Shown here in pieces: positions 39,036-41,229 of a stretch of DNA of 44,746 bases. Location: positions 1 to 44,746 of the forward strand of contig CACZAC010000020.1 in the NCBI GenBank assembly GCA_902779125.1. Reading direction: 5' to 3'. Origin of the DNA: an uncultured Bacteroidales bacterium. Lineage in GTDB: Bacteria > Bacteroidota > Bacteroidia > Bacteroidales > Muribaculaceae. The notes below the pieces were generated by a model. The model was not told where the DNA came from and made no database searches. It was given only the letters and a program-made list of their open reading frames with translations. How positions within the stretch are numbered: the first letter of the stretch is position 1; each line of letters begins with the position of its first letter. The position numbers and the translations under genes are program-made.

Positions 39036-39725
39036 TTACTCAGCTTTCTTGGCGCAGTCACAATCGATGACCTTCCAGATGATGGCTGCCAATGCGCCAC
39101 CTACCAGCGGGCCAACGATGAAGATCCACAGGTTAGCGAGAGCTGTGCCACCCTGGAAAACGGCAGGAGCAATGGAGCGGGCGGGGTTCACCGAAGTGCC
39201 CGTGTAGCGGATGCACACCAGGTGAACGAGTACCAGCGACAAACCGATGGCAAGGCCAGCGAAGTTGTTGGTAGCGCCATTGGTCTTGGCAGTTGCACCC
39301 AGCACGACAAGCACAAACACACAGGTGAAAATAATCTCGGCCAGCAAGCCTCCCATCACCGAAACACCTTCCTGCAAGTCATTGGCACCAGTGCCCTCCA
39401 TACCCATCACATTGGTGGTGAGCAGATAAAGCAAAGCCGAACCGATGAAAGCACCGATGATTTGGAAAACAATGTACATTCCACAGTCCTTAGCGCTCAT
39501 GCGACCGCTCAGGAACACGCCCAGCGTGATGGCCGGATTGATATGGCAACCGCTGATGCCACCGATGGTGTAAGCCATGGCTACCACAGCAAGACCGAAG
39601 GCCAAAGCCGTACCGACAACTGCGGGAATGTTGGTAATGGGGTTGCAACCCAGACTAACGGCAACGCCACAGCCCATGAGAACCAGGACCATCGTGCCTA
39701 CCATTTCTGCTAAATACTTCTTCAT
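39036..39725 (-). CDS. aqpZ: MIP-family channel, aquaporin Z-like
   Basis: 229 residues, six transmembrane helices plus the two NPA half-helices: GCHINPAITLGVFLSGR and GTSVNPARSIAPAVFQGG. The Arg after the second NPA (selectivity filter) is present. The sequence pattern (AEMVGTMVLVLMGCGVAV; TFxxV segments) matches water-selective AqpZ rather than glycerol facilitators, whose second motif is NPARDxGPR. It equilibrates water across the inner membrane. It is monocistronic, with its own promoter (39809-39839) and terminator. The C terminus (DCDCAKKAE) has two Cys. Confidence 0.94.
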   Translation of the reverse strand: MKKYLAEMVGTMVLVLMGCGVAVSLGCNPITNIPAVVGTALAFGLAVVAMAYTIGGISGCHINPAITLGVFLSGRMSAKDCGMYIVFQIIGAFIGSALLYLLTTNVMGMEGTGANDLQEGVSVMGGLLAEIIFTCVFVLVVLGATAKTNGATNNFAGLAIGLSLVLVHLVCIRYTGTSVNPARSIAPAVFQGGTALANLWIFIVGPLVGGALAAIIWKVIDCDCAKKAE

Positions 39726-39860: not shown

Positions 39861-39868
39861 TATATTTG
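39861..39868 (+). promoter_or_regulatory. -7 box for the UDP-glucose dehydrogenase homologue
   Basis: TATATTTG, perfect TAnnTTTG, 44 nt before the ATG at 39913. No TTG at -33 distance. Confidence 0.55.
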
Positions 39869-39912: not shown

Positions 39913-41229
39913 ATGAACGTTTCAATAGTAGGAACAGGATATGTCGGTTTGGTGAGCGGCACATGCTTTGCCGACTTGGGTGTCAATGTGACCTGTGTAG
40001 ATAGTGACAGCCAAAAGATTAACCGTCTGGTGTATGGCGCAATCCCTATCTATGAGCCCGGACTGGACAATATGATCAACCGCAATGTCACCGACAAGCG
40101 GCTCATTTTCTCGAGCGACTACAAGCAGGGATTCATTGACCAGGACTTTGTGTTCTGTGCCATCGACACCACAGCCAGCGAGGACGGTTCCACCGATTTG
40201 ACTCCTATTCTGGACATCGCCAAGGACTTCGGCGAAAACATTACCCGCTACAGCGTTTTTGTCATTAAGTCTACCGTGCCTGTCGGTACTGCCCAGCATG
40301 TGACAAAGATTATTGCCGATACGCTAGAAGCCCGTGGAGCCAGCGACATCAAGTTTGACGTCGCCAGCAACCCCGACTTCCTTACCGAGGGCAATGGCAT
40401 CAAGGACTTCATGAAGCCTGACCGCATCGTCATCGGCACCGAGACACCCACGGCACGACAAGCCATGGAGCGCCTGTACCGTACCATCCTGATGCACAAC
40501 AACCGCACGGTCATCTACACCGACACACGCACTGCCGAGATGATTAAATATGCCGCCACCTCGATGCTCGCCACCCGTGTGAGCTTCATGAACGAGATTG
40601 CCAACCTGTGTGAGATTGTTGGAGCCGACGTCAATGTGGTGCGCCACGGCGTGGGCACTGACAGTCGCATCGGTCCCAAATATATCTTCCCGGGCTGCGG
40701 ATACGGCGGCACGCTGTTCCCTCAAGACATCAACGACTTGATTAAAATCGGCAACGAACACAACTTCGACATGGAGATTCTCAAGGCCGTGGAGAATGTC
40801 AACATCCGCCAGAAACGTATTCTCTTCAAGAAACTCAACAACCACTTCAAGGGCAACCTCGAGGGCAAGACCGTTGCCCTGTGGGGCCTGAGTTTCAAGC
40901 CTGAAACTGACGATATGACCGCCGCCCCCGCCATCGACACCATCAACCTGCTCATGGAGTCAGGGTGTCATGTCCGCGTCTATGACCCCGTGGCTATGAA
41001 TGCCACCAAGCGCCGCTGGAGCAACGTCTATTGCGGACTTGACATGTATGATGCTGTTAAGGGTGCTGACGCTGTACTGCTGCTCACCGAATGGCGCCAA
41101 TTCCGCATTCCTGCTTGGCAGACTGTCAAGAAACTGATGAAGACACCTCTCATCATTGACGGACGCAACGTGTATGACGGCAAAGAACTTGAGGAAATGG
41201 GCTTCACCTACTATTGCATCGGACGATAA
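39913..41229 (+). CDS. UDP-glucose/GDP-mannose dehydrogenase family protein lacking the catalytic cysteine
   Basis: 438 residues with the full family architecture: NAD-binding VGTGYVGLVSG (6-16), central domain and C-terminal UDP-binding domain (ALWGLSFKPETDDM, LLLTEWRQF, IIDGRNVYD). Family enzymes oxidise UDP-glucose to UDP-glucuronate in two steps using a Cys in GGSCFPKD. Here that block is PGCGYGGTLFPQD: Leu268 replaces Cys and Gln271 replaces Lys. Asn after KYAA is Thr216, and the Glu of NPEF is Asp155. Thr121, Glu159, Lys212 and Asp272 remain. Codon use and length look normal, so this is not obviously a pseudogene. It may perform only a partial oxidation, or a different reaction. Monocistronic, followed by a 9-bp tandem array. 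Confidence 0.88.
   Translation: MNVSIVGTGYVGLVSGTCFADLGVNVTCVDSDSQKINRLVYGAIPIYEPGLDNMINRNVTDKRLIFSSDYKQGFIDQDFVFCAIDTTASEDGSTDLTPILDIAKDFGENITRYSVFVIKSTVPVGTAQHVTKIIADTLEARGASDIKFDVASNPDFLTEGNGIKDFMKPDRIVIGTETPTARQAMERLYRTILMHNNRTVIYTDTRTAEMIKYAATSMLATRVSFMNEIANLCEIVGADVNVVRHGVGTDSRIGPKYIFPGCGYGGTLFPQDINDLIKIGNEHNFDMEILKAVENVNIRQKRILFKKLNNHFKGNLEGKTVALWGLSFKPETDDMTAAPAIDTINLLMESGCHVRVYDPVAMNATKRRWSNVYCGLDMYDAVKGADAVLLLTEWRQFRIPAWQTVKKLMKTPLIIDGRNVYDGKELEEMGFTYYCIGR

Follow-up and report, generated by a model that had tools for sequence, protein, structure and literature searches.

The closest described relatives of the gene reported here are the nucleotide-sugar dehydrogenases. Across 229 of these enzymes 18 residues are invariant, including the catalytic cysteine and the other two residues that are replaced here (PMC4794789; the four literature sources in this text are cited from excerpts). 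The first oxidation step is tied to Lys204 and Asn208, and the final thioester hydrolysis to Tyr10. The nicotinamide ribose of NAD is held by Thr83 and contacted by Lys263, and Arg327 forms a salt bridge to the pyrophosphate. Phe142, Glu145, Leu211, Arg244, Gly257 and Lys320 are linked to UDP-glucose (PMC4794789). In UDP-glucose dehydrogenase (UGD), the active water sits on Asp280, which is Asp272 in our protein, and Lys220 serves charge stabilization. A Cys-to-Ala mutant does not complete the reaction from UDP-glucose and oxidizes added aldehyde, and the structure of a Glu161 mutant traps the thiohemiacetal (PMC3184952; entry 3khu is Glu161Gln by its title and E161N in that paper). The gene described below seems to be an undescribed natural offshoot of the nucleotide-sugar dehydrogenases, in which invariant residues are lost and the gene is yet under selection in dozens of species. 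Among the matches listed from the open-access literature on Cys-less UGDs, UDP-6-aldehyde names and pseudoenzymes of this family, no paper reported a clade of this kind.

The window gene and its active site

The window, a stretch of 44,746 nucleotides from an uncultured Bacteroidales bacterium, contains an intact open reading frame at 39913–41229 on the forward strand. It has no internal stops and encodes a UGD homologue of 438 amino acids, assigned to the family by its domain and profile matches as a paralogue without the catalytic cysteine. The protein scored 405.3 bits against the nucleotide sugar dehydrogenase profile TIGR03026 (curated cut-off 189.8), and the NAD-binding (PF03721), central (PF00984) and UDP-binding (PF03720) domains were all above their cut-offs. 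Against the TuaD equivalog NF047673 it reached 475.3 with a cut-off of 700, and the canonical paralogue of its own genome (545.6) likewise fell below. This paralogue, also a UGD of the long type, is encoded on a different contig; it is 54% identical to the window protein and reads GGSCFPKD, NPEF and KYAAN. The same motifs are present in the closest solved relative by sequence, P. gingivalis 3gg2 (508 bits). An AlphaFold model of the window protein (pLDDT 92, pTM 0.83) gave UGDs as top Foldseek matches, with a TM score of approximately 0.57 and an rmsd of 23 Å; the arrangement of its domains is therefore considered unreliable, and no conclusion is built on the model.

All features of the active site lie on the forward strand. 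Residues 265–272 read GGTLFPQD (40705–40728), where the canonical motif is GGSCFPKD. Within it, Leu268 (40714–40716) replaces the catalytic Cys260 and Gln271 (40723–40725) replaces Lys263, the nicotinamide-ribose contact. Asp155 of an NPDF motif (40375–40377) stands for the family-invariant Glu141 of S. pyogenes, and Thr216 (40558–40560) for the family-invariant Asn208. Human Glu161 is presumably the same position as Asp155; human residues were matched to the window protein by motif, and both this match and the human numbering are in part our assumption. Codons 82–95 (40156–40197) form the nicotinamide-ribose loop with Thr86 (Thr83), in which Gly85 is changed to Asp, and Thr336 (40918–40920) replaces Arg327, the salt-bridge partner of the NAD pyrophosphate (roles from PMC4794789). 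The window gene retains Thr alone of the three NAD contacts Thr83, Lys263 and Arg327. Of the 18 reported family invariants, it keeps 15 and departs at three, with Asp for Glu141, Thr for Asn208 and Leu for Cys260. The four replacements listed in the preliminary description (Leu268, Gln271, Thr216 and Asp155) were confirmed by reading the frame, as were the kept Lys212, Asp272 and UDP-binding domain.

Residue counts were taken from an alignment of 62 variant and 38 canonical genes, with 60 of the variants forming the Cys-less subset. Asp155 and Thr216 are present in 62/62 variants and Leu268 in 60/62, the remaining two having Cys; the canonical genes have Glu, Asn and Cys in 38/38. The invariant Lys204 and Asp264 (Lys212 and Asp272 in the window) and, at each position, the UDP-glucose contacts Phe142, Glu145, Leu211, Arg244 and Lys320 are kept in all 62 variants. 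In the Cys-less genes the full set of UDP-sugar contacts, Gly257 included (Phe156, Glu159, Leu219, Arg252, Gly265 and Lys329 in window numbering), is found in 60/60. The acid–base, water and hydrolysis residues are also retained there (Lys212 and Asp272 60/60, Thr121 and Tyr10 59/60 each), as are Asp30 (60/60) and the glycines of GxGxxG (at least 57/60). Slips at other invariants are few: Gly12 is kept in 57 of the 60, Ser117 in 54 and Thr118 in 59, and Gly9 is Ser in the two Cys-keeping variants. The NAD contacts are less well kept, with Thr83 in 53/60, Lys in 11/60 and Gln in 49/60 at position 271, and Arg in 18/60 and Ser or Thr in 42/60 at position 336. Asp155, Asp275 and Tyr257 are newly fixed, as is Thr158 within the Cys-less subset; position 85, which directly precedes Thr83, is acidic (Asp or Glu) throughout. 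The helix 207–224 is nearly invariant in the variants. The 11 genes with GGTLFPKD retain Lys271 and Thr86-Pro87 in 11/11 and Arg336 in 10/11, so that this branch, judged by its residues, has lost the covalent chemistry without losing its grip on NAD. Cys262, suggested earlier as a possible contributor to catalysis, is an ordinary family residue: it is found in 62/62 variants and also in 32/38 canonical enzymes. A role as substitute nucleophile, though conceivable, was dropped, as the shared residue gives no special sign of one.

Distribution, descent and genomic setting

We infer that the host genus is Sodaliphilus-like, within the Muribaculaceae. The same-genus sample consisted of 61 genomes (the window's own and 60 others), and a match at 62% identity or more was counted as the variant. 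It was found in 55/61 genomes, whole in 54 and split across two contigs in one. All 55 active sites were read: 40 have GGTLFPQD (39 whole genes and the split one), four GGTLFSQD, one GGNLFPQD, nine GGTLFPKD and one GGTCFPKD. No variant was found in six of the 61 genomes (G002, G004, G022, G031, G039 and G059), five of which are less than 90% complete. In a draw of 198 genomes from the family, searched at E ≤ 1e-140, 118 gave matches; 16 of these belong to the genus (best match at least 65% identical) and the 102 others reached at most 62%. The 17 genes read from 15 of those 102 genomes were all canonical. Across 40 genomes from other families of the order, full-length long-type matches reached 50–57% identity, and the five that were read were again canonical. 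When the GTDB genome collection was scanned, 592 loci were confirmed, and the best 80 of these comprised 62 canonical genes with Cys from many phyla and 18 variants. To judge by the record titles, all 18 come from Bacteroidales MAGs, and several duplicate other sampled records. As far as seen in these samples, the variant appears to be limited to one genus of rumen and gut bacteria, in which the gene, by its substitution pattern, is maintained under strong selection.

The UGD tree was built by a quick method, with the trait columns included, from the 62 variants together with 38 canonical genes selected among the available loci. Of the variants, 54 came from the 61 genomes, five from the family draw and three from named MAGs; the split gene and most of the named duplicates were left out. 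All 62 fell on one side of a single branch (SH-aLRT 100) with a long stem of 0.6 changes per column, and the position of this clade among the canonical UGDs of the family was weakly supported. The check proposed in the preliminary description, for a conserved GGTLFPQD clade accompanied by a canonical paralogue, thus had a positive outcome. Within the variants, the Cys-keeping pair (G037 and the yak rumen locus L124) forms one side (100), the 11 GGTLFPKD genes form a clade (99) and the 49 genes with Gln271 another (99). As the branch joining both Cys-less clades has a support of 73, a single loss of the cysteine is the simplest reading of the tree, and two losses are possible. The Cys-keeping GGTCFPKD gene of the yak rumen MAG (L124, 2406–3710) has an in-frame stop near residue 342, either an error or a real loss.

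An rpoB tree was built for 50 genomes (48 of the genus and two outgroups); an rpoB match was obtained in 54 of the 64 genomes searched, and four were unused. Genome G037 adjoins the outgroup (86), the seven GGTLFPKD species form one clade (99), and the six absences need four changes. On the simplest history compatible with these trees, all copies would descend vertically from a single ancestral gene, and the absences would be due to some losses or to assembly gaps. In the simplest order of change, Glu155Asp, Asn216Thr, Ser267Thr and the acidic residue 85 would have come first, Cys268Leu second and Lys271Gln third. In one MAG the rpoB match is in three pieces, one with a stop (G043, C53, 671–4334), which is probably an assembly error of that MAG.

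The variant gene stands alone. A Bacteroidota-type −7 promoter-like box, TATATTTG, lies at 39861–39868 on the forward strand, at −52 of the gene; it fits TAnnTTTG, which we take to be the −7 promoter motif of Bacteroidota. The same motif was found between −34 and −61 in 30/30 genes examined, the window's included (a raw count, unshuffled), and a promoter of its own is therefore probable for the variant gene. Upstream, an aquaporin Z-like gene is divergent at 39036–39725 on the reverse strand; its best match is aquaporin Z, below the cut-off of the model. A MIP channel or aquaporin Z-like gene adjoins the variant in 21/26 loci searched in the Gln271 branch, one further locus with half a gene (L082) being excluded. 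In the 90% tier, the loci with long flanks have aquaporin Z-like, DUF4332 and OmpA/PD40 neighbours in 7/7. In nine of the 11 GGTLFPKD loci (L046, 1879–4862; L047; L049–L053; L106; L108), the anaerobic glycerol-3-phosphate dehydrogenase genes glpA and glpB divergently adjoin the variant, in the place held by the aquaporin Z-like gene in the other branch; one representative of the glpAB clusters was named by annotation. A link to glycerol metabolism was considered from these two neighbours and dropped, the window's channel matching aquaporin Z best and below the cut-off. In genome G016 a calcium/sodium antiporter gene lies 3' of the variant. None of the 30 annotated nearby proteins is a sugar-nucleotide protein; seven of the 30 have no family match. 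In the window, a class I/II aminotransferase gene lies 5.6 kb from the variant.

Long-type canonical-like matches (52–55% identical) were present in 32/61 genomes, in G039 as fragments only; active-site readings cover 11 of these 32 genomes, and for the remaining 21 a canonical site was assumed from identity. In the window's own genome, the canonical paralogue sits downstream of a chain-length/tyrosine-kinase-like gene with a long Tyr-Gly-rich tail, named by eye (L002, 3–1478). A protein of this kind is typical of capsule loci. A short E. coli-type UGD was found in 23/61 genomes and was named by best match, since the best score against NF011631 was 587 bits with a cut-off of 757. The long and short types are almost mutually exclusive, both occurring together in two genomes. 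In eight of the 61 genomes neither type was detected. All eight have the variant; they are drafts of 72–99% completeness, G015 being 99% complete. The variant therefore probably does more than assist the canonical enzyme, and such a partnership is unlikely to be its sole function. A UDP-glucuronate-epimerase-like gene (query from L091) was present in 15/61 genomes, 14 of which have a long or short UGD; in the fifteenth, G029, a TviB-like dehydrogenase lies 1.6 kb from it. This co-occurrence test is weak, since several matches are near short UGD or TviB-like genes and the identity of the query comes from resemblance and from adjoining a canonical UGD. A single UDP-xylose-synthase query, of little weight, gave no match in the 61 genomes. 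With every epimerase-like gene accompanied by a UGD or a TviB-like dehydrogenase, a need for the variant as a source of UDP-glucuronate is not visible in any genome. Thus, the variant need not supply UDP-glucuronate, nor need it act via the canonical enzyme.

Constraint on the NAD side and the UDP-glucose side

For a comparison of positional entropy, the two sets were thinned to similar divergence, giving 14 variants (mean identity 0.70) and 19 canonical genes of the family (0.73). Positions 86, 271 and 336, on the nicotinamide and pyrophosphate side of NAD, had a mean entropy of 0.85 in the variants and 0.00 in the canonical genes, and the loop 82–95 had 1.04 versus 0.09. Residues 83–91 were the most relaxed of 430 nine-residue windows in the variants relative to the canonical genes. 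The UDP-sugar contacts (0.08 versus 0.00), the adenosine-side positions (0.09 versus 0.00) and the helix 207–224 (0.05 versus 0.10) were low in both sets. The initial reading that the NAD site is kept holds in part: Asp30 and the GxGxxG glycines are largely retained, but the nicotinamide and pyrophosphate side is remodelled, with Gly85 changed to Asp, Thr86 and Pro87 variable, Lys271 changed to Gln and Arg336 to Ser or Thr. This remodelling weakens a redox reading of the protein.

Values of dN/dS were calculated by the Nei–Gojobori method, and pairs with dS between 0.05 and 1.5 were retained. The 28 genes of the window's tier gave a median dN/dS of 0.058 (352/378 pairs; median dS 0.88). The median was 0.037 for ten GGTLFPKD genes (45/45 pairs) and 0.062 for ten canonical genes of the same genus (28/45 pairs), in both cases near saturation (median dS 1.38 and 1.87, respectively). 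These values point to purifying selection on the variant, with a constraint about equal to that of the working enzyme. Leu268, Thr216 and Asp155 stayed fixed after they were gained, which would hardly follow from drift alone.

Candidate functions and related systems

Read together, the residues suggest that the catalysis of UGD was dismantled stepwise while the UDP-glucose site was retained. The best explanation, to which we give about an even chance, is a pseudo-dehydrogenase that binds UDP-glucose. Such a protein would be a relative of UGD, present throughout the genus and apparently inherited vertically, which has abandoned the four-electron oxidation of UDP-glucose and has retained the dimer core and the UDP-glucose site. 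Its ligand would be UDP-glucose or a similar compound (UDP-xylose, for instance), and the ligand-bound form would itself be the signal or the function, for example in a UDP-glucose-responsive regulator analogous to OpgH and UgtP. This explanation draws on the loss of the nucleophilic Cys, of Asn near O6 and of the loop Glu, the loss of NAD contacts in most members, the strictness of the UDP-sugar contacts and the purifying selection. Several observations speak against a pure binder. Lys212, Asp272, Thr121 and Tyr10 are kept, although mere binding need not keep them, and the retained Asp30 and glycines suggest that a dinucleotide may still be bound. The GGTLFPKD branch, by its residues, keeps its grip on NAD, and in eight genomes no other UGD was detected that it could regulate. 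Neither a partner nor a regulon or phenotype came to light.

A more specific proposal, offered tentatively and with considerable doubt, is a non-catalytic UDP-glucose receptor that reads the level of UDP-glucose, is coupled to a core process such as growth, division or envelope supply, and is retained also in genomes without a detected catalytic UGD. OpgH of E. coli and UgtP of B. subtilis are division inhibitors for which UDP-glucose serves as a nutrient signal (PMC3723540). The cultured Sodaliphilus pleomorphus has very long, irregular cells (PMC7738495), which would make a link to division or shape testable if the receptor proposal is true.

An enzyme performing a single NAD-dependent two-electron step at C6 is possible, if doubtful: it would oxidize UDP-glucose to the 6-aldehyde, run this step backwards, or oxidize, epimerize at C5 and re-reduce its substrate, and would release the product. 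Lys212, Asp272 and Thr121 are kept while the cysteine that catalyses the second step covalently is missing, as this enzyme would lead one to expect; the GGTLFPKD branch also retains its NAD contacts. A Glu161 mutant traps the thiohemiacetal (3khu; PMC3184952), and the equivalent position is already changed in both Cys-keeping genes. However, the nicotinamide-side contacts are lost in most members (Lys271, Arg336 and the relaxed loop 82–95). Asn208, which belongs to the first oxidation, is lost and Tyr10, which belongs to thioester hydrolysis, is kept (PMC4794789), so that there is no clean loss of the second half. No user of an aldehyde adjoins the gene among the annotated neighbours, and the aminotransferase is 5.6 kb off, without a shown link. 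The earlier argument, by which an enzyme without the thiol should fail at the second oxidation, is an oversimplification, since the Cys-to-Ala enzyme stalls from UDP-glucose and yet oxidizes the aldehyde when it is added (PMC3184952). With NAD contacts lost in most members and UDP-glucose contacts essentially fixed, the pseudo-dehydrogenase is favoured over an oxidoreductase that releases the aldehyde. That the protein acts on another nucleotide sugar, or uses the retained Lys/Asp pair in a reaction without redox chemistry, is unlikely. Leu268 and Thr216 do take the place of residues at the C6 end of the pocket, and Asp155, Asp275, Tyr257, Thr158 (in the Cys-less genes) and the acidic residue 85 are newly fixed; yet the window gene retains the UDP-glucose residues Leu211, Phe142, Arg244, Gly255 and Tyr256 and lacks both the arginines for UDP-ManNAc (indices 259 and 359) and the histidine for GDP-mannose (359) given in the excerpts of PMC4794789.

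We regard it as quite improbable that UDP-glucuronate is still made with water attacking the aldehyde directly. The eight genomes with the variant and no long or short UGD detected, one of them 99% complete, would fit such an enzyme, as would the oxidation of aldehyde without the cysteine (PMC3184952), but Asn and Glu are gone besides Cys. These eight genomes also have no clear need for the product, an epimerase-like gene being found in one of the eight, near a TviB-like dehydrogenase, with the epimerase-like and UDP-xylose-synthase queries. Decay or a sequencing artefact, which the alteration of three family-invariant residues might suggest, is scarcely credible and is refuted by the comparative data: the gene is whole in 54/61 genomes and split in one more, dN/dS is 0.037 and 0.058 in two branches, the promoter-like box recurs in 30/30 genes and the changes are fixed in a single clade. 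The claim of the preliminary description that coordinated changes in an intact gene are neither decay nor error is thereby borne out. Its overall interpretation stands for the conserved clade, the paralogue and the intact gene, and gives way on the NAD site, the thiol argument and Cys262. The graded series in this clade (Cys kept; Cys lost and Lys kept; both lost) offers natural proteins for dissecting the roles of these residues in the two half reactions; in rumen bacteria, the clade might prove to include a sensor of UDP-sugars or an enzyme that produces an aldehyde.

OpgH and UgtP are glucosyltransferases with no known relation to the UGD family; their likeness to the variant, UDP-glucose as a signal, is an analogy for the proposed role only. 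The UDP-ManNAc dehydrogenases and the TviB-like UDP-GlcNAc dehydrogenases share TIGR03026 with the window protein; in the examples read, Cys and Asn are present and NPEF is absent. The short E. coli/streptococcal-type UGD (NF011631) belongs to the same superfamily as a separate, distant lineage, and the examples read have the cysteine (YGGYCLPKD) and Asn. The closest likeness is to the long-type UGDs (EC 1.1.1.22; the own-genome paralogue, 3gg2 and BceC), with which the window protein shares three domains, the UDP-glucose contacts, Lys212 and Asp272, at 54% identity to the paralogue and 51% to 3gg2. It differs from them in the changes of Cys to Leu, Asn to Thr and Glu to Asp, and in an altered NAD loop, Lys271 and Arg336.
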